64,000 bases of DNA from Natrarchaeobius chitinivorans. Its GTDB lineage: Archaea > Halobacteriota > Halobacteria > Halobacteriales > Natrialbaceae. The position numbers were made by a program, and so were the translations under genes. The notes beneath the pieces were generated by a model. It was not told where the DNA came from. It did not search any database and saw only the letters and a program-made list of their open reading frames with translations. Position 1 is the first letter of the stretch, and the number at the start of each line of letters is the position of its first letter. This document shows, piece by piece, positions 26,016 to 41,636 of the stretch. The stretch spans positions 186,001 through 250,000 of the forward strand of contig NZ_REGA01000001.1 in NCBI RefSeq assembly GCF_003841505.1, written 5' to 3'.

Positions 26016-27326
26016 TCACCGACCACTTTCGATGACGTATTCCGCTGCCATCTCGTCGGGACCGATCACCTCGAGTTCGTCGCTTCCGTCTAGATACTCC
26101 GCGGTCGCCTCGAGCGCGGACAGCGACTCTGCGTCGAGTTCGTAGAAGACGATCGCGGTGATGCCGCCCCACTCGGACGTCGTTTCGAGCGCCGCTCGAG
26201 CCTCGTCGGCGTCGGGGTTTATCACCCGGGAACAGAGGGCAGGGTTGGCGGCGTACCCTTGCGAGGGGAAGCGGCCAGCGAATCCGAGTTCGTGGTGTTC
26301 CTCGACGAGTTCGAGCGTCTCGCCGTTGTACTTGTTCTGGGGGTACGAGAAGTAGTCGGCTCCGTCCTCGTAGCCGTTGTCCTCGAGCCACGCTCTCGCG
26401 TCGCTGATCTCGTCTTCCTGCTCCCGATCCTCGGGCGGACTCGCGAGGTTGCTCCCGTGAGCCGAGTGGCTGGCGATCGTCCAGCCGGCGTCGTCGAGTT
26501 CCGCAAGCTGGTCGTGGGTGAGTCGATCGCCGTCGTGGTCTTCCTCCTCGCGGAGTCGGCCCGTAGTGACGAACGAGGTCGCCTGGTAGTCGTACTCCTC
26601 GAGGACGGGCAGAGCGTCCGTGTAATCGGTTTCGTGGCCGCCGTCGAACTGGAGCAAGACCGTGCCCTGCTCGGGTGCGGGAACGAAGTGGAGGTCGTCG
26701 ACCCAGAGCTGGGTTTCGTACTCCTCGCCGGTCCACCGAATGATCTGGATTTCGGTGATGTCGGTCAGGTTAGGGTCGCCGTCGACGTTCGCGATTCCGA
26801 ACGAACTTCGGGTCAGTGGCGTATCCGAATGGACCTGCTGGCGGAAGTCGATCCGATCGCCGTCGCTGTCGGCGAGCTGGATGATCGGTGCCGCTGTCGC
26901 CGACGACGCCATCGCTACGCCGGGTCGCATCTCCGAGAAGTCGCGGGGCTCGTCGAGTTCCCTAACGATCCTCACGCCTTCCTCTTCGGCTTCGGCCTCG
27001 AGAAGGGCGGACTGGGATCCGGTGTAAGATCGCTCTTCGTCCGCGGTGAGCGAGCCGACGACGACCTCCCACCGGTCGAGGTCTTCGAAGTCGTCGACCT
27101 GTTCGATCTCCTCGTCCTCGTCTTCGTCTTCGTCTTCCGTTTCTTCCTCGGGTTCGGTGTCGTCCGCGTCGTCTTCGGGGTCGTCGTCCGCGTCGTCTTC
27201 GGGGTCGTCGTCCGCGTCGTCTTCGGGGTCGTCGTCCGTCGGTTCGGTATCGCTCTCGTCGCCGCCCAGACAGCCGGCGAGTGCCGCAGTCGCCGCGGCC
27301 GCAGCGAGGTACTTTCGTCGGTTCAT
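26016..27326 (-). CDS. Secreted polysaccharide deacetylase-like lipoprotein
   Basis: The 436-residue protein starts MNRRKYLAAAAATAALAGC, a Tat-type signal with lipobox, so it is probably exported folded and lipid-anchored. Residues 24-70 are an acidic linker with three DDDPEDDA units. A carbohydrate-binding-like beta domain follows, then a NodB-type deacetylase domain with QFDGGHETDY and SHSAHGSNL. The usual FDDG is FDGG here, so the first metal-binding Asp is Gly while the HSAH motif is intact. It may be inactive or altered. The stop is 43 bases from element B1. Confidence 0.8.
   Translation of the reverse strand: MNRRKYLAAAAATAALAGCLGGDESDTEPTDDDPEDDADDDPEDDADDDPEDDADDTEPEEETEDEDEDEDEEIEQVDDFEDLDRWEVVVGSLTADEERSYTGSQSALLEAEAEEEGVRIVRELDEPRDFSEMRPGVAMASSATAAPIIQLADSDGDRIDFRQQVHSDTPLTRSSFGIANVDGDPNLTDITEIQIIRWTGEEYETQLWVDDLHFVPAPEQGTVLLQFDGGHETDYTDALPVLEEYDYQATSFVTTGRLREEEDHDGDRLTHDQLAELDDAGWTIASHSAHGSNLASPPEDREQEDEISDARAWLEDNGYEDGADYFSYPQNKYNGETLELVEEHHELGFAGRFPSQGYAANPALCSRVINPDADEARAALETTSEWGGITAIVFYELDAESLSALEATAEYLDGSDELEVIGPDEMAAEYVIESGR
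27157..27228. repeat. 24-bp in-frame tandem repeat in the deacetylase gene
   Basis: Three 24-base units at 27157, 27181 and 27205 encode DDDPEDDA in the acidic linker; the last two are identical. Copy number could vary without frameshift. Confidence 0.9.
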
Positions 27327-27614
27327 TGCGGGTGTACGGTCTACCGTCACGGCCATTGTAATTCGACGCCGTACTCGCGAAATCAACCGTTGCCCTCCGG
27401 GTCGGTCAGATGGGCGAACTGCGGTGGCCGTGACAACCGGCCCATACCTCCACACTCCCGCGATCCGCCACCGAGACGCGAGCATAAATCTCCCACAACT
27501 GACGGTATACTGGGTGTACACGTGGGTTTACTCCACGACTTCCAGTCGTCCGACGATGGACTCGAGAGGGGAGACGATATCGATTGGACGAGCGAAAAAC
27601 GGACACGGAGTCCG

Positions 27615-28651: not shown

Positions 28652-28661
28652 CATTTAAATA
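28652..28661 (+). promoter_or_regulatory. TATA box of the AddAB-like operon
   Basis: CATTTAAATAG lies about 36 bases before the ATG at 28693, suggesting a very short leader. The divergent CBS gene has its own box at about 28585-28593. Confidence 0.5.
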
Positions 28662-28692: not shown

Positions 28693-30888
28693 ATGCCCGC
28701 CACCCCCGCCCTCGAGGGGACGTGCAAACTCCTCCCGGGACCGAGTGCCGCCCGCTTCGAGACGGTAGCCACCGAGTACGCTGCGCTCGCGTCGGCGTAC
28801 GGTCCACGAAACGTGCTCGTGGTAAAACGCCATCCCACCGGACTCGAGCGCATCGCCGCCCGAGTCGCCGACAGCAGCGAAACGACCGAGACGCCACGCT
28901 CTCCGCGGGTGGAATCGGTGCCCGAACACGCCTCGAAGGTCCTCGAGGAGTTCGACCCGACGCTCGATCGCCTCGAATACGAAGAACGGATCGAACTCAT
29001 CTCGCTCGTAATCGAGGGGATGAGCCGAGAAGTTCCCCCGTACCTCGAGCGCGCAGCGGCCCACGAGAGCTTCGTCCGCGACGTCGGACAGCTGCTGCTC
29101 GAGGCCACGCGCCAGCGGATTACTCTCGCCGACCTCGAGGATCTGGGGGAGTCGCCACACGAGTGTCTCGCCTTTCTGTACGCGATCAACGACCGGTTTC
29201 ACGAGGAACTCGCGAGTCGCGGATACGTCGAGCGGGCGGACGTAATTCCGCGGGCGGTCGAGTTGCTCGAGGACGACGCGGACGGCCTCCGAACGCGCGT
29301 GACCGACTCCATCGACGCCGTCCTCGCGATCGAGTTCGAGGAGTACAGACGGCTCGACCGCCGGTATCTCGCGGCGATCTCCGACGGCGCGGAACTGGTG
29401 TGTCTCGGCGAGCGCCACGCAAGCGTCGAACGGACCCGGGTCGAACCTGGACGAATCGAAAACCTCGTGGGCCCGGGGCTCACGATCGAGACGCTCGAGG
29501 GAAACGCCGGAGAGCGTGACCGACCCGCCGCCGATCGACCCCACGGCGGGATCGTCCGATTTCTCGCGACCGGCGAGGGACCGACTGCGGGGACGAGTCA
29601 CGCGAAGCGAATACGAACGCGGACCGCACGGGAGCAGGCGAAAGCGGTGGCGACGGAAATTCAGGCGCTCCGTGACCGCCACGGCTGGCGGTACGACGAG
29701 TTCGCGATCGGCCTTCCGCGGATCGAACGCGTCCCCGAGACGCGGCGACTCCTTCGCGAGGCCGGCATTCCGACCGCGACGATCGGGACGCCGTCGCTGG
29801 CCGAAGATCCGGCGGTAAACGAGCTCTACGCGTTCGTGACGGTCCAGTGTGACCGGGAGCGAAGCGGCCCGAGCCACGGCGAGCACGGATCGGACCGGGA
29901 CCGGGACGCGGCGATCGAGCGCCTACGCGCCCGCGTCGAGGAATTCTCGCCGGCGCTGCTCGAGGAGTGTGCCGGCGCGAGCGTCTCCCGCTCGATCGCG
30001 CGGTGGATCCGTCTGACCGATCTCAAAGGCCGAATCGCCGCGAGCGAGGAGTGGGTCGACGCCCGCGAACAGTACGACGGGATTCGGCGGGTGCTCGAGA
30101 TCGCTCGCTTCGTCGAGGAGACGGACCTCGTCGGACCGGACTGGCAGGGGCTTCGCCGGATGCTCCGGCGAACGATCCAGTACGACGCGCCGTACGTCCA
30201 CGCGGTCGAAACACGTACGCCGACCGGCGGCGTGGCAGTCCGTTCCGTCGACGACCTCAAAGACGACTCGCGGGAGGCGGTGTTCGTGCTCGATCTGATC
30301 GACGAAGCGTATCCGGGCGAACAGTTTCTCACCCAGCTGTTCCCGTCCGCGTGGCTGCGGGAGATGGCGACGTACCCGGCGGTCACTGACCCCGAACCGT
30401 CTGCGGTCGCGTCGACGTTCGCACCGGTCGATCCGGGAGACGATCTCGCCTCCCCCTTCGAGACGTATCACGCACAGCGATCCAGACGACGGCTCGCGCT
30501 CGCGGCCCGAGCGGCCCGGAGCGCCCTCTATTGCTGTTCGTACGAACGAGGATCCGGCGGCCTCCGGCGAACCTACGACGAGTCGCGGTTCCTGAAACTG
30601 ATCGACTCGACGCCAGGCCTCGTCCTCGAGGACGTCGACAATCGGACCGGTGCGGCCATCCACGGGGAGACGAACGCCATCGAGGCGTTACTGGACCAAC
30701 CCCGCGGCGAACTCGAGCGCGTGATCCGCGAGGCGAGTACCGGTGGCGAGGCGGATCTCGCCGAGACCGAAGCGCTGTTCGAGGAGATCGCGCTCGTCCT
30801 CGAGGAGGGTGATCTCGACCCCGCCCTCGCGGAGGCGATCCGATCGCAGTTCGAGTTCGCCGCCGGCGAGGTGATTCGGCGTGACTGA
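28693..30888 (+). CDS. AddB-like inactivated UvrD-type helicase subunit
   Basis: The 731-residue protein starts MPATPALEGTCKLLPGPS. It resembles the helicase-derived part of AddB/RexB. The order of segments fits an SF1 fold: an N-terminal region with VLVVKR, ELISLVIEGMSREVPPYLERA, then AIEFEEYRRLDRRYLAAIS and a middle part with RTAREQAKAVATEIQALRD, PRIERVPETRRLLREAGIP and VFVLDLIDEAYPGEQF. There is no Walker A GxGKT at the expected place (LLPGPSAARFE) and no DExx box, so it should not hydrolyse ATP. The C-terminal nuclease of AddB is missing and appears to be the next gene, which overlaps by 8 bases. Confidence 0.65.
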   Translation: MPATPALEGTCKLLPGPSAARFETVATEYAALASAYGPRNVLVVKRHPTGLERIAARVADSSETTETPRSPRVESVPEHASKVLEEFDPTLDRLEYEERIELISLVIEGMSREVPPYLERAAAHESFVRDVGQLLLEATRQRITLADLEDLGESPHECLAFLYAINDRFHEELASRGYVERADVIPRAVELLEDDADGLRTRVTDSIDAVLAIEFEEYRRLDRRYLAAISDGAELVCLGERHASVERTRVEPGRIENLVGPGLTIETLEGNAGERDRPAADRPHGGIVRFLATGEGPTAGTSHAKRIRTRTAREQAKAVATEIQALRDRHGWRYDEFAIGLPRIERVPETRRLLREAGIPTATIGTPSLAEDPAVNELYAFVTVQCDRERSGPSHGEHGSDRDRDAAIERLRARVEEFSPALLEECAGASVSRSIARWIRLTDLKGRIAASEEWVDAREQYDGIRRVLEIARFVEETDLVGPDWQGLRRMLRRTIQYDAPYVHAVETRTPTGGVAVRSVDDLKDDSREAVFVLDLIDEAYPGEQFLTQLFPSAWLREMATYPAVTDPEPSAVASTFAPVDPGDDLASPFETYHAQRSRRRLALAARAARSALYCCSYERGSGGLRRTYDESRFLKLIDSTPGLVLEDVDNRTGAAIHGETNAIEALLDQPRGELERVIREASTGGEADLAETEALFEEIALVLEEGDLDPALAEAIRSQFEFAAGEVIRRD

Positions 30889-32002
30889 CCGCGGACGCGA
30901 CGGACCGGGAACCGGCCGACGGCTCGACGAAGCCGACGGGGGCGACGCGATCGAGCTCACTCATAACGGAATCGAGACGTACCTTCGCTGTCCGCGCCGG
31001 TACGAGTTCGCTTCGGTCTACGCCCTCGATGGGAGCGACGACGGGCCGACCGACGACCGGGTCGACCTCCTCAGACGCGCCATCTGTACGGCGTTGGCGA
31101 GTGGAGAGACCGACCGTGATGGACTCCTCGAGACGGCGCTGTCGACGCTGTCGTCGCTGTGGGACGATCACGACGAGCGATTTCACTCTCGGGCCCAGCG
31201 ACGACACGAACGCCAGGTCCTCGAGGCGACGCTTCGGGCGTACGTCGACCGCGTCGGACTCGACCACGCAGGCGGTATCGAGCGAACGACTTCGGGGAGT
31301 CTACCTGTCGACGAGATCGTCGGACCGTCGCTTCCGGTGTCGAGGACGGTGACCGTTCCGCAGTCGGGAGAGAAACGGGGAGTCGAACCGGGGCCGTCGA
31401 ACCGGGTGCTCGCTCCCGAATCCGTCACGGTCGAAGCCGAGGTCGACTACGTATTCCGCGACGGGCCGTCGGTCGTCGGGGTCCGGTTCGTTCCCACCCT
31501 CGCCCCGCTCGGCCCACTCCGGTATCGATCCGAGTGGGACGGCGACGTCGCCGAACGCTTTACGGACCACTTCGATCCCGCGGCCGACGTCTACGATCCC
31601 GCCCCCGTCGCGGCGCTGCTCGAGACGGCGGTCGTCCTCGACGGCCTTCGAACGCTTCGGGATCGGCTCGACCTCGGAGGGAAGACGTGTCGGTACGTGC
31701 AGGTTCCGCTCGCGGATCGGTCGAAGACGTCGGTCAACTGGGTGAGCGAATCCGTCGAGACGAGCCTCGAGATCGCCGACCTCACCGACGTCTACGTCGA
31801 CCACCACACGTACGGGCTGACCCACGAGCACCGAAACGAGACGGTCGACAGCCGCCTCGAGGCGGTCGTTGGCCGCCTCGTGGAGGGTGCGTTCGATCCG
31901 GGCGATCGGTGGGAACAGATCAGGGGGGAGGCCTGTCCCGAGTGTGCGTACGCGGTCTGCTGTGAGGAGCGAATCGCGGCGGAGGTGCGATTCGATGGGT
32001 GA
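30881..32002 (+). CDS. AddB-like Fe-S nuclease-fold protein, probably catalytically dead
   Basis: A 373-residue protein with a GTG start overlapping the previous gene by 8 bases. C37 in YLRCPRRYEF and C352, C355 and C361 in CPECAYAVCC form the C...CX2CX5C iron-sulfur pattern of AddB/Cas4-type nucleases. The PD-(D/E)XK core would be EAEVDYVF followed by VVGVRFVP: the first Asp is present, but the (D/E)XK is replaced by GVR. The domain therefore probably binds DNA or stabilises the complex without cutting. It overlaps the AddA-like gene by 8 bases. Confidence 0.65.
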   Translation: MTDRGRDGPGTGRRLDEADGGDAIELTHNGIETYLRCPRRYEFASVYALDGSDDGPTDDRVDLLRRAICTALASGETDRDGLLETALSTLSSLWDDHDERFHSRAQRRHERQVLEATLRAYVDRVGLDHAGGIERTTSGSLPVDEIVGPSLPVSRTVTVPQSGEKRGVEPGPSNRVLAPESVTVEAEVDYVFRDGPSVVGVRFVPTLAPLGPLRYRSEWDGDVAERFTDHFDPAADVYDPAPVAALLETAVVLDGLRTLRDRLDLGGKTCRYVQVPLADRSKTSVNWVSESVETSLEIADLTDVYVDHHTYGLTHEHRNETVDSRLEAVVGRLVEGAFDPGDRWEQIRGEACPECAYAVCCEERIAAEVRFDG

Positions 32003-35000
32003 AGATCGGCGGAACGATTCGACGGGTGAAGATCGTCAAAACGGTTCGACGGGCACGGACCGGCGGGACGATTCGACGGGTGAAAGCCAGAACGGAAGTT
32101 CGGCGAACGGCGAGCGGACGCCGCTCGAGCCGAAGGGGAGCCAGAGAGACGTCATCGACAGCCGGGCGGCCTGTCTCTCCGTCGACGCCGGCGCGGGAAC
32201 CGGAAAGACGACGACGATGCTCATGCGCATCGAGCGGACGATCGAACGCGGGGACGTCGATCCGGACGACGTGCTCGTCCTGACGTTCGCGAACGAGGCC
32301 GCCGGAAGCATCCGGGACGCGGTGGCCGAGCGGCTCGATCCCGAGACGGCGGCGGCGATCGACGTACACACGTACCACTCGTTTTGCTACCGGCTGGTCC
32401 GCGAGTACGCCTACTACCTCGGGTACTCACCGGAGTTCGAGGTGGTCACCGAGCGAAACCGGCGGCGGCTGGTCGGCCGGCTCCTCGCCGAAAACGAGTA
32501 CGACTTCGCCTCCGCCACCCACGGCGACGGGTCGTCGACCGACGTCGTCGAGTCGGTCGATCGGTTCATCCGGGCGATGAGCCAGGAGGACATCGCGCCC
32601 GAGACGCTTCGCGAGACGCTCCCGGACGTCCGGACGCTCGAGTTGTTGACCGAGTTCGTCCTCTGGCTCGAGCGCCGGGCCGAGGAGGAACTCACCTTCG
32701 ACAACGAGGCGCTCCGGTACTTCAACGAGGAGGTCCACCTCGAGGCCGCCCGCGAATCGCTGGTCGAGTACGGCAAACTCATCTCGTTCTGTCGCGAGAA
32801 AATCGCCGAAGCGCCGGCGGAGTTTCGCGACGACGACGTCGTTCGCGACGTGGACCGCTACCTCCGGGTGCTCCAGCGGTGTGTGACAAACACGATCGAG
32901 ACGCTATCGCTCGAGGAACCCACGACGAAACAGCTCCCCCGTGCGCTGTTCGCCAACGAGATCTGGCGGACGGCGACCGGCCGCCTCGAGCAGAGTCCGT
33001 TCGGGCGGCTGAAACACTACGTGGAGTTTCTCCGACTCGCCCGCCACTACGCGGACGTCTACGCGGACTATCACGAACTGCTGGCGGCGGAACGGGCGCT
33101 CGATTTCGACGAACTGGTGCGGACCGCGACCGCACTGGTCGGCGGCGAAACCGGCCCCGGAACCGCGTTTGTCGGGTCCGAGGACGACCCAACGCAGGAG
33201 GCGGTCGCCGCGGAGATCACCGGCCAGTGGGAGCAGGTGTACTGCGACGAGTTTCAGGATACGGACGAGACCCAGTTCTCGCTGATCGCCGCGCTCACGG
33301 ACGGGCCGGACCGACCCGATCTGCTCGCGATCGGCGATAAGGATCAGGCCATCTACGGCTGGCGCGGGACCGACCGCGAGGGCCTCGATCGCCTCGCAGG
33401 GGTCTACGACGACCACGAGTCGATCGAACTGGAACTCAACTTCCGCTCGCGCCAGGAGATCCTCGATCTGACGAATCACTGTTCGTACGGCCCCCAGTCC
33501 TCGAAGACGCTCCGCGAGGACGGTCGAGAGCCCGGCACGTACGCCGAGGTCGGATCCGATCACGTCGGCGAGACGCCAGCCGACCGGGTCGTCAAAGTCG
33601 AGAGCGACGAACTCGAGCACTCGACCGCCGAACAGGTATCGACGACGGTCTCCCGGCTTCTCAACGGCGAAAGCGCCACCGTCCCGCAACGATCGCTGGC
33701 TGACCTCGCGGTGATCGTCCGAACGAACCGTCAGGCACAGGCCGTCGCCGACGCGCTCGGGGACCGACAGATCCCCTACGAGATTTCGGGATCGCCCCGC
33801 GGCGAGATCCCCCCCGGAGTACGGACGGTGCTGTCGTATCTCAGGGTTCTCGTCGACCCTGACGCCGACGCGCACCTCCGGCGGGTGTTGGTGTACCGGT
33901 ACCGGCTCTCCGAGGACGACCTCGCGACGGTACAGCGCGCGGAGACGACGCTTTACGACGCCGTCTTCGAGGTCGACCTCGAGGCGCTCGAGCGGCCGGC
34001 GCGTCTCGAACGGGCCCGCGAGCACCTGGCCGAACTCGAGCGAACCAGAAGCGTCTATCCGCTGTCGGGGTTCGTCCGCCGGTTTCGGGAACTGACCCGA
34101 CTCGAGTGGTTCCTGACCGACGAGGAGCGGACGGAGTTCGACCGGCTGGAACGCTTCGCGGAGCGGACGGAAGCCGACGCCGCGATCCATTCGCTGTCCG
34201 AAGCGTTCGTCGACGCGCTCGAGCGAACGCTGCGCGGGGGCGAATCCGACCGGACCCGCGGCACCCGATCGAGCGATCGCGTCGACGTGATGACGGTCCA
34301 TCAGGCCAAGGGGCTCGAGTTCGACACCGTCCTCGTCCCGTTTCTCTCGGACGAGGAGTGGTGCGTCGAAACCGACCACGCCCGCCGCGCTCGCTACCGA
34401 CTGCTCGCCGCCGCCCTCGAAGGAGAGGAGTCGCCGCTTTTGGCCGATCTCACCGCGGATACCGTCGCCGAGGAGTGGCGGGTGGTCCACGTCGCGCTCA
34501 CCCGCGCCGAGAACCACCTGTTCGTCTTCGGCTCCGGCTACGACTACGACGGAAGCGAGGACGAACTCGGCGTCTCGACGGCCCAGCAGTGTCTCGCCGA
34601 CGACGTCGAGTGGTCCGTCGCCGGGAAGCGAATGGACCTCTGGTCGACGCTGATCGACAGCTTCGAGCGAGTTCGCGAGACGTATCCCGACACCGTCGCC
34701 GATCGCACCGAGGAAATCGCCCGATCGGCCGACGCGACGCCAGGGACGATTACCTACTACGCCGACCGGCCGATCGAACCCCTCGAGACGTCGGACGCGA
34801 TCGAAACGGTCCACCGCCTCGGGGGGCTGGTACGGGACGGAACGCTGTTGCCCGCGGCGGACGCTGCGGACGCGATCGCGCTCGAGGGAGACGATTCCGA
34901 CCGGGCGATTCGAACGCCGGTCGGACGCCACCTCTCGGCGCTGACGACGGAGACGACCAGATTCCCGGTCCAGTCGCTTTCGACCCCGAACCAGCTTCCC

Positions 35001-35852
35001 GCCGCGTTACGTCACAGCTACACCGCGATGGAGACCCACGACACCTGTTCTCGAAAACACTACCTCGATCACGTCGTGCGGGCGATCGACGATCCGCTCG
35101 AGGCAACGGGGCCGAATCGGTCGGAACCGCCCTCGGTGGACGAGCCGGACCGACCGGATTCGCTCGAGGGGGGCGAGACGAGCCAGCGCCTCGTCGGGAC
35201 GATCTTCCACGCCGTCGCGGAGGAGGCGTTCTACAGGGGCTATCGCGGCCGCGAGGAGTGGCGCGAAGCGGCGATCCGACAGCTCACGGCCCGCGGCCTC
35301 ACGGGCCACCGTGAGCCGATCCTCGCCTGTATCGACCGGTTTTTCGAAGCGAGCGTCTCCGGAATCGATCGACCGATCGCCGACTGGGAGGCGGTCGCCG
35401 CCGAGTATCCGTTCTCGCTCGCGGACGTCTCCGAGGTCGCCGGCGACGTGGTCGGCTACGTCGACTCGATCCGCCGGCTCCCACCGGACGGCGGCGTGAT
35501 CGGGGATGACGCGGCTATCGGTGGCTCCGCCGGCGACCTCGTCGTCCTCGATTACAAAACGAGCGCCGAACGGATCGGCGTCGACGACGCGACCCAGCTG
35601 ACGCTGTACGCGCGAGCCTGCAACGCCCGGTTCGAGCGGCCGATAGCGGCTGCGGGCTACGTCCACGTCGGCGACCCCGGCCCCGCCGTCGACCTCTTCG
35701 ATCCCGACGATCTGCCGCCGTGGTCGACCGTCCGCGAGACGCTCGAGGGAGTGGACGATCCGTCCTACGAGGACACCTCGCCCGGCGAGCACTGCCGGTT
35801 CTGTCCCCACCGGTCGCTTGGCTGTGGGCCAGCGGAGTACAGTAGCCACTGA
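31995..35852 (+). CDS. AddA/RecB-like helicase-nuclease
   Basis: A 1285-residue motor of the predicted complex. Walker A GAGTGKT is at 66-72, with DEFQDTDETQF, IYGWRGT, ELNFRSR, TVHQAKGLEFDTVLVP and VALTRAENHLFVFG following as in UvrD-type 3'-5' helicases. The C-terminal nuclease has D1186-Y-K1188 in VVLDYKTS. Cysteines C1018, C1267, C1270 and C1277 suggest an iron-sulfur cluster, with CX2CX6C spacing. The first 36 residues are four nine-residue repeats (GEDRRNDST type). The start overlaps the upstream gene. AddAB-type complexes process double-strand ends for homologous recombination. Confidence 0.82.
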   Translation: MGEDRRNDSTGEDRQNGSTGTDRRDDSTGESQNGSSANGERTPLEPKGSQRDVIDSRAACLSVDAGAGTGKTTTMLMRIERTIERGDVDPDDVLVLTFANEAAGSIRDAVAERLDPETAAAIDVHTYHSFCYRLVREYAYYLGYSPEFEVVTERNRRRLVGRLLAENEYDFASATHGDGSSTDVVESVDRFIRAMSQEDIAPETLRETLPDVRTLELLTEFVLWLERRAEEELTFDNEALRYFNEEVHLEAARESLVEYGKLISFCREKIAEAPAEFRDDDVVRDVDRYLRVLQRCVTNTIETLSLEEPTTKQLPRALFANEIWRTATGRLEQSPFGRLKHYVEFLRLARHYADVYADYHELLAAERALDFDELVRTATALVGGETGPGTAFVGSEDDPTQEAVAAEITGQWEQVYCDEFQDTDETQFSLIAALTDGPDRPDLLAIGDKDQAIYGWRGTDREGLDRLAGVYDDHESIELELNFRSRQEILDLTNHCSYGPQSSKTLREDGREPGTYAEVGSDHVGETPADRVVKVESDELEHSTAEQVSTTVSRLLNGESATVPQRSLADLAVIVRTNRQAQAVADALGDRQIPYEISGSPRGEIPPGVRTVLSYLRVLVDPDADAHLRRVLVYRYRLSEDDLATVQRAETTLYDAVFEVDLEALERPARLERAREHLAELERTRSVYPLSGFVRRFRELTRLEWFLTDEERTEFDRLERFAERTEADAAIHSLSEAFVDALERTLRGGESDRTRGTRSSDRVDVMTVHQAKGLEFDTVLVPFLSDEEWCVETDHARRARYRLLAAALEGEESPLLADLTADTVAEEWRVVHVALTRAENHLFVFGSGYDYDGSEDELGVSTAQQCLADDVEWSVAGKRMDLWSTLIDSFERVRETYPDTVADRTEEIARSADATPGTITYYADRPIEPLETSDAIETVHRLGGLVRDGTLLPAADAADAIALEGDDSDRAIRTPVGRHLSALTTETTRFPVQSLSTPNQLPAALRHSYTAMETHDTCSRKHYLDHVVRAIDDPLEATGPNRSEPPSVDEPDRPDSLEGGETSQRLVGTIFHAVAEEAFYRGYRGREEWREAAIRQLTARGLTGHREPILACIDRFFEASVSGIDRPIADWEAVAAEYPFSLADVSEVAGDVVGYVDSIRRLPPDGGVIGDDAAIGGSAGDLVVLDYKTSAERIGVDDATQLTLYARACNARFERPIAAAGYVHVGDPGPAVDLFDPDDLPPWSTVRETLEGVDDPSYEDTSPGEHCRFCPHRSLGCGPAEYSSH
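31998..32105. repeat. 27-bp tandem repeat at the 5' end of the AddA-like gene
   Basis: Four 27-base units at 31998, 32025, 32052 and 32079 encode GEDRRNDST, GEDRQNGST, GTDRRDDST and GESQNGSSA. The 15-base junction GATTCGATGGGTGAA at the overlap of the two genes matches the unit border GATTCGACGGGTGAA, so the array likely grew from the gene junction. Confidence 0.85.
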
Positions 35853-36754: not shown

Positions 36755-36840
36755 TCATACGGTTTACTGGAAGTCGTTACCGGAGCGACCGCGGGACAGC
36801 GCCCGGTCGCTCCGGTACACAGTTACAGTAATCCGTATCA
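36755..36840. repeat. Family A element (A8) ending on the scpA stop codon
   Basis: Left arm TCATACGGTTTACTGG, 12-bp stem CCGGAGCGACCG / CGGTCGCTCCGG (the same stem class as A1), and right arm TTACAGTAATCCGTATCA. The final TCA (36838-36840) is the scpA stop codon. Confidence 0.9.
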
Positions 36841-37908
36841 GTCCGCGACCGCCTCTTCGGGCTCCGCCTCGAGTGTCGCCCGTTGAATCCAGAGGTCGCC
36901 GAACAGTTCGTCCTGCTCGAGTTCGATCCGGCCGCGGTGGGCGAGAAACAACAACGCGAGGTAGGTCATCACGCGCGAGCCGCCGATCTCGTCGATTTCG
37001 GCGTACAGAACCTCCGATCGGCCGTTCTCGTATTGCTCCTCGAGGACGGCCTCGACGTCGTCGATCACCGTCTCGATGTCCTCCTCGTGGGTCGTGTGCG
37101 TCACGTCGTCGCTGGTCGGTTCGTCGTCGACCCGGAACTGGTCTTCGGCGTGGTACGAAAGCTCCTGGACGCCCCGGTCGTACCCTCGCGGCGAGTCGCT
37201 CGTATCGTAACTCCGGGATTCCTTCCACCAGGTACCACGCTCGGCGCTTCTGAGTTCGCGCACCAGTTCGTCGAGCGTCTCCGGCTTCCCGCGGGCCTGC
37301 TTTCGCTCGAGGCGGCGTTCCATCTCCGTCTCGAGGCTCTCGATGGGGTCGAATCCCGGCGGGTGGTCGCCCCCGTCGTCGGCCATCGAGTCGTCGTCGG
37401 CGAACGGGGCCTCCCACGGCGGCAGCTCCTCCTCGTCGGGCTCGTCGGGCGCGAACAGCTCGTCGCTTTTCATCCGCAAGAGGACGCTCGCGTAGAACAG
37501 CGCCCGACCCGACGTCCGCAGATCCGCGTCGTCTAACGCCTCGAGGAACTTGTCCGTCACCCGGACGACGTCGATATCCCACGGATCGATCTCGCCGTCT
37601 TTGGCGAGTTGAACCAGCAGTTCGACCGGCTCGACCTCCTCGTCCTCCTCCGCCTCCACTTCGCTCGTCTCGTCTACAGTCGCGTCGGCCTCGTCCCCGA
37701 CAGGGGATTCCGAGAACTCGAGGACGGTCCCATCGTCGTCGCTCGACTTCTCGGAGCCGCCGTCAGGGGGCTCCCTGTCCTCGTGACCGGCGATATTCAA
37801 CGGGATGTCGTCACCGCCGTCGGTTCGAACCTCGCGATAGAATTCCTCGCGTGACCGATCGGGTTCTCCGCTCGAGCGTTCGGACTCGTGTGGTGACTCC
37901 CTAGTCAT
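36838..37908 (-). CDS. scpA: Segregation and condensation protein A (kleisin)
   Basis: The kleisin partner that closes the SMC ring in chromosome organisation. At 356 residues it is longer than bacterial ScpA because of an acidic N-terminal 95 residues and an acidic middle linker. The N-terminal kleisin part is VEPVELLVQLAKDGEIDPWDIDVVRVTDKFLEAL, then LFYASVLLRMKSDELF. The C-terminal winged helix ends SRVMTYLALLFLAHRGRIELEQDELFGDLWIQ. The ATG overlaps the smc stop by 8 bases, so the two are co-translated. The stop codon is the end of a family A repeat. Confidence 0.88.
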   Translation of the reverse strand: MTRESPHESERSSGEPDRSREEFYREVRTDGGDDIPLNIAGHEDREPPDGGSEKSSDDDGTVLEFSESPVGDEADATVDETSEVEAEEDEEVEPVELLVQLAKDGEIDPWDIDVVRVTDKFLEALDDADLRTSGRALFYASVLLRMKSDELFAPDEPDEEELPPWEAPFADDDSMADDGGDHPPGFDPIESLETEMERRLERKQARGKPETLDELVRELRSAERGTWWKESRSYDTSDSPRGYDRGVQELSYHAEDQFRVDDEPTSDDVTHTTHEEDIETVIDDVEAVLEEQYENGRSEVLYAEIDEIGGSRVMTYLALLFLAHRGRIELEQDELFGDLWIQRATLEAEPEEAVAD

Positions 37909-40900
37909 CAGCAGGCACCTCCTCGCTACTCAGATCGATTCCGGTCACCGCGCTCACGTTGTCCTGTTGCATCGTCACACCGATCGCCCGCTGGGATCGA
38001 TCGAGCATCGCCGAGCGGTGTGAGACGACGACGAACTGCGCCTCGTCGGCCAACTCTTCGACCATCTCGCCGATTCGCTCGGCGTTGACCGCGTCGAGGA
38101 ACGCGTCGACCTCGTCGAGCGCGTAGAACGGAGCCGGGTTGTGCCGCTGGATCGCGAAGATAAAGGCGAGCGCGGTCAACGACTTCTCTCCGCCGGACAT
38201 CGCGTCGAGACGCTGGATCGGCTTGTCCCCGGGCTGGGCTTTCATCGTCAGCCCACCCTCGAAGGGATCCGCCTCGTCTTCTAAGTGGAGGGTTCCGGTC
38301 CCCTCCGAGAGCTTCTCGAAGATCTCCGTGAAGTGACTCGAGATCGCCTCGTAGGCGTCCATGAACGTCCGTTTCTTCTGTGATTCGTACTGCTCGATCC
38401 GGTCGCGGATCCCCTCGGCCTCCTCGACCAAGGTGTCCCGTCCCTCCTCGAGGTCCTCGAGATCCGAGCGAACCTCGTCGTACTCGTCGATCGCGAGCAT
38501 GTTGACCGGCTCCATCGCCTCCATATCCGCCTCGAGCAACTCGATCATCTCGAGGACGGTGTCGTGATCCGGCACGTCCTCGGGGTCGTACTCGCTGACC
38601 TCCGCTTCGAGGCTTTCGATCTCCCACTCGAGGCTCTCGACGCGCTCGCGTTTGTCCTCGAGTTTGCTCTCGAGTGTGTTCACCCGCTCTTGCTGGGCGT
38701 CGCGGGCCGTCCTGGCCTCGGCGAGATCTTCCTTCAGATCGCTCCGTGTGGCCTTCAACTCGGTGAGTTCCTCCTCGAGGTCCGCGACCGCTTCGTGTTT
38801 GTCCTCGAGCGTCTCGCGTTTCTCCGCGATCGTCGCTTCACACTCCTCGATGCGCTCTTCGTGTTCGGCGGTGCGGTTCTGGGCCGCCTCGATGTCGTCG
38901 TGGAGGTCGTCGATCGCGTCCTCGGCGTACTCCTTCTCGAGGCCGAGTTCGTTGAGTTTCGCGTCGATGTCGTCGATTCGCTGCTCGCGCTCGTCGATCT
39001 CGGAGGCGAGTCGTTCGATCTCGGCGGTCAACTCCGGAATCTTCGAGTCCGCGAGTTCCGCCTCGAGGTCCGCGATGTCGGCTTCGATCTCCTCGATCGC
39101 CGCCGTCCGGTCGTCGATTCGCCCGGAAATCTCGTTCATCCGCTCGTCGACGGACTCACGCTCCTCGCGGAGCTCCTCGAGTTCCGACTCGAGGTCCTCG
39201 ATCTCGCCTTCGACCGACTCGCGGCGGTCGTCGAGTTTCTCGATCTCGGTTTCGATCGATCGAACCTCGTCGGCGGCGTCGGTCTTTCGATCGCGAGCGT
39301 CGTCGAGGCGTCCGTCGACGTCCCGTAGCTCCTCGCGCACGGACGCACGTTCGTCCTGTAACTCGGTGATCTGTGTGGCGACGCGCTCGAGTTGTCCCTC
39401 GCCCCCGCCGGTAAAGGAGTACCGGGAGCCGCTGCCGGAGCCGCCGGTCATCGCGCCGCTTTTCTCGACGAGGTCGCCGTCGAGCGTGACCATCCGGTAC
39501 TCACCCATGTACGCCCGGGCGGTCTCCAGGTCCTCGACGACCAGGGTGTCACCGAGAACGTACGAGAAGACGCCGGCGTACTGATCGTCGAAGTCGACGA
39601 GGTCGTACGCGAAGCCGACGACGCCCTGATCCGTCGGCGCGTTCGGCAATCCGCGTTCGCGCATGTCCGTAAGCGGCAGAAACGTCGCCCGGCCCGCGTT
39701 GCGCGATTTGAGGTGGTCGATACACTGCTGGCCGATGACGTCGTCGTCGACGACGACGTTCGCGAGACGACCGCCCGCGGCGGTTTCACAGGCGATCGCG
39801 TACTCGCCCGACACCGTCCCGAGCTGGGCGACCGCGCCGTGGACGCCGTCGATCCCCGAGTTGAGAATCGTCGTCACCGCCCGCCCGAACGAGGAGTCCC
39901 CGCTCTCGCCGGCGTTCGCCTCGAGTTCGGCGTACTCCTGTTGTTTCGCCTGGATCTCGTCGTCGAGGTCGTCGACGTCGGACTGCAGTCGGCGCTTCTC
40001 GTCTTTCAGGTCGTCGACGACGTCCGCGATGCTCCGGCGGTTCTTCTCTGCCTTTTCGAGTTCCCGTTCGAGATCACCTCGCTCGCTCTCGAGTTCGGGA
40101 ATCTCCTCGCGGCGACGCTCGATGGTGTCTTCGTTCTCGCTGATGGCGTTCGAGCGACGGCGAGCCTCGTCCAGCAGCCGATCCTGCTCGCGCTGGAGGT
40201 CGTTCTTCGCGGTTTTGGCCTCCTCGAGGTCGTCCTTTCGGTCCGCGAGTTCGGCCTTGAGTTCGTCGAACTCGGTGTCGACGGAGTCGATCTCGGCTTC
40301 CAGATCGTCGCGTTCGGCCTCCCGTTTTTGTATCTCGGTTTTGATCGAGGCTTTCTCGAGTTTGTGTTCGCGGATCTCCTCGTCGAGGTCGGCGATCTCC
40401 TCCTGTTTCCGGTCGATCTGGACGAACGCCTCGCGGCGGTTGGCCTCGGCCTCCTCGATCTGCTCCTCGCTGGCCTCGATCCGATCCTCGAGCCGGGAGA
40501 TCTCGCCTTTGATCTCCTCGATCTCGCTTTTGATCCGAAGCTGCTCGTCCTCGCCTTTCCGTTCGATCTCCGCGTTCAGGTCCTCGAGGTCCTCCTGCAG
40601 GCGGACGAGTTTTCCCTGCCGTTCGTCGAGTTCCCGCCTGCGCTCGGCGAGGTCGTCCTCGAGGCTCTCGACCCGATCGGTCGCAGCCGTGAGGTCCTCG
40701 CGTTTCTCCTCGAGTTCGCTGGCCTTCCGGTAGCCCTCGTACTCCTCTTTCTCGCGGCGAAGCCTGCGGTATCGCATCGCAGTTCGGCGCTCGTCCTCGA
40801 GTTGACCGAGCCGATCGCGTTTCTCCCCGATCCGGAGTTCGGCCTCGTCGATTCGTTCCTCGACGACCTCGAGTTCCTCGAATGCGTCTTCTTTTTTCGC

Positions 40901-41473
40901 GTCGAATTCGGCGACGCCCGCGATCTCGTCGATGATCCCCCGCCGGGCGTGGGGCGTCATGTTGATGATCTCGGTGACGTCGCCCTGCATGACGACGTTG
41001 TACCCCTCGGGCGTGACACCGGCCTGTGCGAGCAGGTCCTGGATGTCCGAGAGGTTCACCGATCGGTCGTTCAGATAGTAGTAGGAGTAGTAGTTGTCCT
41101 CGGTCTCTTTGACCCGGCGACGGATCCGAATCTCCTCGACGTCGCCGACATCGTCGCTGCCCGCGGCGTTGACGACCTGCGAGCGGTCGAGCGTGCCGTC
41201 TTCGTTGTCCAGAACGACTTCGACGACCGCCTCCCGCGGACCGCCGGTCGACGAGCCGTCCTCGTGTCCGGGGTTGTAGATGAGGTCGGTCAGTTTCTCG
41301 GCGCGGATGCCACGCGTTCTGGCCAGTCCGAGCGCGAAGAGGACGGCGTCGATGATGTTCGACTTCCCGGAGCCGTTCGGGCCGGTGACGACCGTAAAGT
41401 CCTCGTAGAACGGAATCTTGGTCTTCCGGCCGAAGCTCTTGAAGTTGTCCAGAACGACTGCTTTGATGTACAT
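37901..41473 (-). CDS. smc: Chromosome segregation protein SMC
   Basis: A 1190-residue ATPase that forms a ring with ScpA. It starts MYIKAVVLDNFKSFGRKTKI; the Walker A is GPNGSGKSNI near residues 32-41. Two long coiled coils flank a hinge around residues 510-680 (VHGAVAQLGTVSGEYAIACE; MTGGSGSGSRY at its end). The C-terminal head has LDAMSGGEKSLTALAFIFAI and PFYALDEVDAFLD. The length is standard. Thirty in-frame upstream residues to 41563 are not conserved-looking. It is the middle gene of a coiled-coil protein, smc, scpA series. Confidence 0.95.
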   Translation of the reverse strand: MYIKAVVLDNFKSFGRKTKIPFYEDFTVVTGPNGSGKSNIIDAVLFALGLARTRGIRAEKLTDLIYNPGHEDGSSTGGPREAVVEVVLDNEDGTLDRSQVVNAAGSDDVGDVEEIRIRRRVKETEDNYYSYYYLNDRSVNLSDIQDLLAQAGVTPEGYNVVMQGDVTEIINMTPHARRGIIDEIAGVAEFDAKKEDAFEELEVVEERIDEAELRIGEKRDRLGQLEDERRTAMRYRRLRREKEEYEGYRKASELEEKREDLTAATDRVESLEDDLAERRRELDERQGKLVRLQEDLEDLNAEIERKGEDEQLRIKSEIEEIKGEISRLEDRIEASEEQIEEAEANRREAFVQIDRKQEEIADLDEEIREHKLEKASIKTEIQKREAERDDLEAEIDSVDTEFDELKAELADRKDDLEEAKTAKNDLQREQDRLLDEARRRSNAISENEDTIERRREEIPELESERGDLERELEKAEKNRRSIADVVDDLKDEKRRLQSDVDDLDDEIQAKQQEYAELEANAGESGDSSFGRAVTTILNSGIDGVHGAVAQLGTVSGEYAIACETAAGGRLANVVVDDDVIGQQCIDHLKSRNAGRATFLPLTDMRERGLPNAPTDQGVVGFAYDLVDFDDQYAGVFSYVLGDTLVVEDLETARAYMGEYRMVTLDGDLVEKSGAMTGGSGSGSRYSFTGGGEGQLERVATQITELQDERASVREELRDVDGRLDDARDRKTDAADEVRSIETEIEKLDDRRESVEGEIEDLESELEELREERESVDERMNEISGRIDDRTAAIEEIEADIADLEAELADSKIPELTAEIERLASEIDEREQRIDDIDAKLNELGLEKEYAEDAIDDLHDDIEAAQNRTAEHEERIEECEATIAEKRETLEDKHEAVADLEEELTELKATRSDLKEDLAEARTARDAQQERVNTLESKLEDKRERVESLEWEIESLEAEVSEYDPEDVPDHDTVLEMIELLEADMEAMEPVNMLAIDEYDEVRSDLEDLEEGRDTLVEEAEGIRDRIEQYESQKKRTFMDAYEAISSHFTEIFEKLSEGTGTLHLEDEADPFEGGLTMKAQPGDKPIQRLDAMSGGEKSLTALAFIFAIQRHNPAPFYALDEVDAFLDAVNAERIGEMVEELADEAQFVVVSHRSAMLDRSQRAIGVTMQQDNVSAVTGIDLSSEEVPADD

Positions 41474-41636
41474 TCTCTTCTCGAGGCCTCCGTCGGGACG
41501 TCCGTGGCGTGTCGGCGGTCGCGAAACCGGCTGGCGGTGACCGTGTGGAATCGCTTGGGACACCGAACGGCTGGCGGTGACCGTACGAATCGATTGGCAT
41601 ACCGGACTGGTGTCGGTTCGCGCCGCGACGGTCCAG

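Follow-up and report, generated by a model that had tools for sequence, protein, structure and literature searches.

What kind of enzyme is encoded by three tightly overlapping genes, of which only the last appears to have kept its catalytic residues? The question is raised by a locus of the haloarchaeon Natrarchaeobius chitinivorans, within a 64,000-nucleotide stretch of contig NZ_REGA01000001.1 (positions 186,001 to 250,000; the window), where three same-strand open reading frames, ORF1, ORF2 and ORF3, follow one another, each neighbouring pair sharing 8 bp. The database records inspected label these genes 'DNA helicase UvrD', 'PD-(D/E)XK nuclease family protein' and 'ATP-dependent DNA helicase'. 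An earlier, sequence-only reading proposed a split AddAB-like operon with two dead subunits; its coordinates and both overlaps are correct on re-reading of the window. Our results indicate that the operon probably encodes one AddAB/RecBC-type helicase-nuclease, in which a RecC-like, catalytically dead ORF2 evolved separately.

ORF3 has the composition of AddA, i.e. a superfamily 1A helicase fused to a PD-(D/E)XK nuclease with all motifs present, as had been proposed. It matches UvrD-helicase, UvrD_C and PDDEXK_1 in Pfam, and the closest solved proteins by sequence are PcrA/UvrD, followed by AdnB and then AddA. A column-by-column check found the Walker A, DExx, motif III and motif VI residues to be invariant in 49/49 sequences, as are the nuclease residues H1072, D1157, D1186, K1188, Q1201 and Y1205, together with four cysteines (49/49).

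For ORF1 and ORF2, family profiles and structural models were needed, because single-sequence searches of Pfam, NCBIfam, PADLOC and the PDB returned no match for ORF1 and at most a weak PDDEXK_1 match for ORF2. The profile searches suggested by the sequence-only reading were informative: a 49-row ORF1 family profile has Bacillus AddB (3u44_B) as its top PDB match (E = 2.7e-8), above UvrD1 and AdnA, and PDDEXK_1 is matched by 47 of 49 ORF2 family members (best E = 3.2e-25). In Pfam, UvrD_C is matched by 21 members of the ORF1 family and ADDB_N, weakly, by eight. The ORF2 profile gave chance matches only against the PDB (a potassium channel and the glucocorticoid receptor), which were discarded. 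Within a 49-sequence database, both profiles also match ORF3, that of ORF1 in the helicase part (E = 3e-14) and that of ORF2 in the nuclease part (E = 2.5e-6), as is expected of AddA/AddB-type paralogues.

The AlphaFold model of ORF1 (predicted local distance difference test score, pLDDT, 82; predicted template modelling score 0.82) has UvrD as its best structural match (residues 8-650, Z 26.9), and its residues 8-724 align with AddB 2-767 (Z 22.5, 627 residues aligned). The ORF2 model (pLDDT 88.6) ranks AddB first, over residues 782-1138 (Z 15.0, 279 aligned), in a tie with AdnA (14.8) and ahead of the Cas4-family ACE1 (13.7). The fold check set in advance, with ORF1 on a superfamily 1 (SF1) helicase fold and ORF2 on a nuclease fold, was thus passed by both models, which tile AddB in the manner expected if the two proteins correspond to one bacterial AddB. 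ORF1 ends at AddB 767 and ORF2 begins at AddB 782, which puts the break in the linker that joins the helicase-like part of AddB to its nuclease part. The sequence profile, the Pfam hints and the two structural models together support ORF1 and ORF2 being an AddB that is split in two, end to end.

As in AddB, the helicase-like fold of ORF1 is without motor motifs. None of the 83 ORF1 relatives checked has a Walker A motif, and nearly all of them have E[F/Y]EE in place of motif II; a strand motif in domain 2A is one that we take to be AddB-like. The initial observation that ORF1 has neither a Walker A motif nor a DExx box therefore holds, but a helicase-dead half is the normal state for AddB and RecC.

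ORF2 supplies the nuclease-fold domain with a four-cysteine iron-sulfur (Fe-S) site that AddB has at its C terminus. C37, C352, C355 and C361 are invariant (49/49 and 83/83 sequences) and are predicted to bind an Fe-S cluster, C37 adding an upstream cysteine to the CX2CX5C motif that had already been noticed. The (D/E)XK motif is indeed lost, although its replacement had been read in a register off by 1-2 residues, as GVR; the position reads RFV (R202-F203-V204). Further active-site changes in the window ORF2 are of His to R65, Gln to Glu and Tyr to Val.

The order ORF1-ORF2-ORF3 on one strand is found in 48 Halobacteriales operons besides that of the window (50 fetched loci, minus one duplicate and one that was cut off). 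In a second set, of 77 genome-collection loci, ORF2 follows ORF1 in 77/77 and ORF3 comes next in 75, while the remaining two loci run into a contig end; many genomes are common to both sets, whose counts are therefore not additive. In this survey across haloarchaea, which the sequence-only reading had recommended, every operon with sufficient sequence (48; 75) keeps both order and split, and in none of them is AddB the single polypeptide usual in AddAB. The three-gene order is far beyond chance. The junction overlaps are mostly of 4 or 8 bp, in both frame relations (offsets 2 and 1) and with a start codon at nearly all junctions, which argues for coupled re-initiation and not for programmed frameshifting. 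In other Halobacteriota, of methanogen type (L260-L262, L264-L267), an unsplit AddB of ~1040 residues stands beside AddA; it is matched by the ORF1 profile, its DYKTG motif is intact and it has no Walker A motif at the usual place. Further Halobacteriota (L256-L259, L263) have one-protein UvrD-nuclease relatives.

Loss of the ORF2 nuclease is confined to one lineage. The comparison comprised 83 ORF2 sequences, i.e. that of the window, 70 from the genome collection and 12 from other fetched loci, with one sequence present twice (L206 and L130). In the active clade, D-Y-K and the motif-I His, Gln and Tyr are all retained (26/26), whereas the dead clade, made up of Natrialbaceae and some relatives, has other residues in place of the catalytic His, Lys, Gln and Tyr (57/57), with Arg or Lys always standing for the His. 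The acidic residue is lost in 54/57, three rows retaining one (DYR twice, EYR once), and the D-Y-K position otherwise reads RFV (35), QFV, RYV, RLT, NFV, SFV and similar. Partial catalytic states exist between active and dead ORF2. The first Asp and the four cysteines are retained in both clades (83/83). The claim of a dead nuclease subunit is accordingly correct for the window clade, but not for a sister clade that keeps the full centre in the same split operon.

Rooting an ORF3 tree with methanogen-type sequences places the two ORF2 types, active and dead, in sister clades (Shimodaira-Hasegawa-like approximate likelihood ratio test 100 and 99), although the tree was built quickly and its branches are long, so that the position of the root is less certain than the clades themselves. 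On the rooted tree a single change of state is enough, and the ORF2 nuclease seems, on these sequences, to have been lost once. The pairwise ratio of non-synonymous to synonymous substitution rates (dN/dS) is 0.16-0.33 for dead ORF2 and 0.06-0.13 for active ORF2; the ORF3 partners of dead ORF2 have values of 0.10-0.25. All three genes are under purifying selection, and dead ORF2 is no pseudogene.

The two clades also differ in their genomic setting. The dead clade occupies a fixed chromosomal site, where a CBS-domain gene lies upstream in divergent orientation (36/41 loci), and its distribution tracks family taxonomy; the active clade is patchy across several families, with several copies on plasmids. 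Both types occur together in genomes G017, G019, G023 and G119. Where the locus sequence was examined, Ago, AgaP or related genes lie near 10/23 active-clade loci versus 0/47 dead-clade loci (Fisher p = 3e-6, counting loci as independent despite kinship). A Piwi-domain Argonaute is encoded beside the active-clade locus L230 (5096-7780, E = 2.6e-20), and the gene for a PLD-like protein (agaP) ends ~8 bp upstream of ORF1 at L215, L230 and L233. An apparent five-gene run, ago-agaP(PLD)-ORF1-ORF2-ORF3 with a catalytic ORF2, is present at L230 (5096-16391) and at L215, L233, L069, L138 and L144; its gene content suggests an extended APAP defence operon. Ago-agaP (APAP) operons confer immunity, and a 'helicase-encoding gene' adjoins some of them (Cheng et al. 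2024, PMC11442185); this helicase may be the ORF1-ORF2-ORF3 operon. Adjacent ago and agaP genes, which define APAP, are found in part in the active sister clade and not in the window clade, and Piwi had no match in the window genome.

Two further observations were made around active-clade copies. A protein of ~380 residues, convergent with ORF3 (L208, 16378-17529, minus strand; likewise at L211, L213, L218, L068, L139 and L140), is weakly similar to the L230 Argonaute (E about 1e-37) and is possibly an Ago-related fragment. On a Halorarius halobius plasmid, the BREX-5 phosphatase gene pglZ lies upstream of the operon (L271, 3482-5635), in a defence-island setting.

The contrast with HerA-NurA that was initially drawn is weak. 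The window genome has a NurA-domain gene (G000:C1:477205-478155) and a HerA-like gene (L269:11817-13712) ~1.6 kb apart, and Pfam NurA scores above its curated cut-off in 129/146 Halobacteriales and in Haloferax volcanii. This runs counter to reviews according to which H. volcanii lacks HerA and NurA, or the two are not apparent in haloarchaea (PMC7776575, PMC12977600). The idea that the operon substitutes for a missing HerA-NurA was therefore dropped, and its tie to haloarchaeal resection is weakened. RecD2 had no match above cut-off in the window genome, and no RecD is present in the operon; a search for the Rad50 zinc hook found no match, but was uninformative, as the H. volcanii control likewise gave none.

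With respect to mechanism, ORF3 would be the sole motor and the sole nuclease of the complex, ORF1 a non-motor subunit that guides DNA and possibly scans its sequence, and ORF2 a structural Fe-S element of the DNA path, which has kept its fold and cysteines while losing catalysis, much like the dead nuclease domain of RecC. The three proteins would be made together via the overlapping start and stop codons. The AddA/RecB motor pulls along the 3' strand, and cutting of the 5' strand falls to the AddB nuclease. With the latter missing, both strands would have to be cut by the ORF3 nuclease, in the manner of RecB, or only the 3' strand would be trimmed. Such roles for ORF1 and ORF2 would parallel those described for the AddB/RecC helicase-like fold, which guides and scans the 3' strand (PMC4824097), and for the RecC dead nuclease domain, which forms a hoop for single-stranded DNA (PMC1185551). 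The complex would unwind and trim DNA ends, most likely in recombinational repair or in the clearance of linear DNA. Our analysis bears directly on homology, fold, motif state, gene order and overlaps, the single nuclease loss and purifying selection; the mutual binding of the three proteins, Fe-S cluster loading, DNA polarity and the cellular role we infer by analogy.

Several observations weigh against this reading. The HerA-NurA pair of the same genome could perform resection, and the operon is not essential everywhere, since 3/20 sampled Natrialbaceae genomes are without it (ORF1 was found in 17/20, one being an intermediate type). Some Chi-site residues of Bacillus AddB have no conserved counterpart in the profile alignment, leaving Chi recognition unsupported, and the link of the active sister clade to defence genes leaves room for a role in defence. 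Of the end-resection machine first proposed, the dead helicase and nuclease parts beside an intact AddA-like subunit in a coupled operon are supported, but resection is only one of two live roles.

The other role, i.e. that Natrialbaceae use the AddAB-type machine in defence, to destroy or process invading DNA as the active sister may do with Argonaute and PLD, is in our view unlikely, albeit a serious contender. It would fit with the Ago/AgaP-like genes near 10/23 active-clade loci, with agaP ending ~8 bp from ORF1 at several of them, with the active copies on plasmids and beside BREX-5 pglZ, and with the demonstrated immunity of APAP operons, some of which have a helicase gene nearby (PMC11442185); however, Ago/AgaP genes are found at 0/47 dead-clade loci, the window genome has no Piwi match, and the window clade keeps to its fixed chromosomal CBS site and tracks family taxonomy. 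It appears distinctly unlikely that the proteins act separately, with ORF3 as a one-protein UvrD-Cas4-like helicase-nuclease, ORF2 as a Cas4-like remnant and ORF1 as a relic. Although one-protein UvrD-nuclease relatives do exist in other Halobacteriota and UvrD-Cas4 fusions are on record (PMC5704561), ORF1 and ORF2 are present in every operon with enough sequence (in searches that were seeded with ORF1), the genes have coupled overlaps, selection maintains all three and the top-ranked structural match of ORF2 is AddB.

Two alternatives concern the genes themselves. Active-site migration is known within the superfamily (PMC1185551), and the first Asp and a second conserved His of ORF2 are invariant, so a window-clade ORF2 that is still a nuclease with a relocated site can be envisaged; the replacement of His, Lys, Gln and Tyr in 57/57 and of the acidic residue in 54/57, and the relaxed constraint on ORF2 relative to the active clade in terms of dN/dS, make this very unlikely. 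We give almost no credence to the split being a programmed frameshift that yields one AddB polypeptide, or an assembly error, as gene overlaps of a few bases might imply: the overlaps in relatives are of 4 bp as well as 8 bp (offsets 2 and 1), a start codon being present at the junction in either case, Shine-Dalgarno-like sites precede ORF2 and ORF3, and the split is identical in many independent assemblies.

Returning to the AddAB/RecBC-type complex, a fuller scenario can be put forward tentatively, as an attractive account of which we are not quite persuaded. An AddAB to RecBC-like conversion may have taken place in haloarchaea independently of bacteria, with AddB cut in two and its nuclease dying once; the catalytic sister would have stayed mobile and become the end-processing partner of Argonaute-PLD immunity (ago-agaP-addB1-addB2-addA), while the single nuclease of the dead clade would serve both strands without RecD.

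The features of the operon are collected in the table below. The G+C content of ORF1-ORF3 is 0.67-0.68, similar to the 0.64 across the window. Immediately downstream, ScpA and SMC genes lie convergently (window 36838-41563, minus strand); this linkage is not conserved, being found in 0/42 loci with at least 4.5 kb of downstream sequence. An open reading frame at 26016-27521 (minus strand) resembles a polysaccharide deacetylase-like lipoprotein and has, by eye, a repeated acidic DDDPEDDA tract.

Table. Window positions of the three genes, their motifs and candidate expression signals.
Feature	Position	Strand	Basis
TATA-like TTTAAATA, ~35 bp upstream of ORF1 ATG	28654..28661	+	by eye
ORF1, 731 residues; predicted helicase-like, non-catalytic SF1-fold half of AddB	28693..30888	+	profile, AlphaFold model
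ORF1 P-loop equivalent PGPSAAR, without GK[ST] (beta1-loop-alpha1)	28735..28755	+	
ORF1 motif II equivalent EFEEYRRLDR, counterpart of ORF3 DEFQDTD	29332..29361	+	
ORF1 domain-2A strand motif EAVFVLDLIDEAYP	30274..30315	+	
Shine-Dalgarno-like GGTGA ahead of ORF2 GTG, within ORF1	30870..30874	+	by eye
ORF2, 373 residues, GTG start; predicted separate AddB nuclease domain, PD-(D/E)XK, Fe-S cysteines, catalytic residues lost	30881..32002	+	model, motif columns
ORF2 Cys37, first Fe-S ligand (predicted)	30989..30991	+	
ORF2 Arg65, where active clade has catalytic His	31073..31075	+	
ORF2 Asp189, retained first Asp (83/83)	31445..31447	+	
ORF2 R202-F203-V204 at D-Y-K position	31484..31492	+	
ORF2 C352/C355/C361, CX2CX5C Fe-S ligands (predicted)	31934..31963	+	
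Shine-Dalgarno-like GGAGGTG, 7 nt ahead of ORF3 ATG, within ORF2	31981..31987	+	by eye
ORF3, 1285 residues, ATG start at 31995; AddA/RecB-like SF1A helicase and Fe-S PD-(D/E)XK nuclease fusion, motifs complete	31995..35852	+	Pfam, motif columns
ORF3 Walker A AGAGTGKT	32187..32210	+	
ORF3 motif II DEFQDTD	33246..33266	+	
ORF3 nuclease motif LDYK (D1186, K1188)	35547..35558	+	
ORF3 C-terminal Fe-S cysteines; partner C1018 at 35046	35793..35825	+	

The operon is real and conserved, and is well explained as a split AddAB-type helicase-nuclease with the AddB nuclease lost in one lineage; its cellular role is putative. It gives archaea an AddAB-type machine. A literature search limited to open-licence papers found no paper describing archaeal AddAB, and the reviews consulted do not mention a machine of this type in haloarchaea. 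According to an earlier proposal, RecBCD evolved by way of an AddAB-like stage, with the loss of the RecC nuclease coming later (PMC1185551). The step from AddAB to a RecBC-like state seems to have occurred separately here, with both states in related, sometimes the same, genomes and with partial states between; their coexistence opens an old evolutionary proposal to experiment on an unusually clear before-and-after pair. The Argonaute link in turn points to a helicase-nuclease that may feed haloarchaeal prokaryotic Argonautes (pAgo) or act after them.

With Bacillus AddAB (RexAB) the operon shares a helicase-dead AddB-like half plus Fe-S nuclease domain, an AddA-like motor with a nuclease, and adjacency of the genes; it differs in that AddB is two polypeptides, ORF1 has no Walker A motif, this clade has a dead AddB nuclease and the host is archaeal. 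The methanogen-type pairs likewise have AddA adjacent to AddB, but their AddB is unsplit with DYKTG intact. In the case of mycobacterial AdnAB, ORF3 scores higher by sequence against AdnB than against AddA, and ORF2 aligns to AdnA (Z 14.8); however, AdnAB has motor and nuclease modules in each chain, whereas ORF1 has neither a Walker A motif nor a nuclease domain, and AdnA is a single chain whose nuclease residue D934 is mutated in solved forms (PDB titles), implying an active centre of the kind that ORF2 is without. The haloarchaeal APAP systems (long-A pAgo-PLD, PMC11442185) can be directly followed by the active sister clade, whereas the window clade has neither of their genes. UvrD-Cas4 defence fusions are single helicase-nuclease proteins found near restriction-modification genes (PMC5704561); ORF3 taken by itself has this domain order, and the neighbours here are ORF1, ORF2, CBS and NUDIX genes. 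As in E. coli RecBCD, where RecB stands beside RecC, a doubly active subunit accompanies a partner with dead helicase and dead nuclease domains; the differences are that this partner is two proteins, that its Fe-S cysteines are kept, that a sister lineage is still active and that there is no RecD motor at the locus. The operon is AddAB-type by composition and fold, departing from AddAB in this clade in the single-chain AddB and the active AddB nuclease, and it is RecBC-like in state, without RecD.

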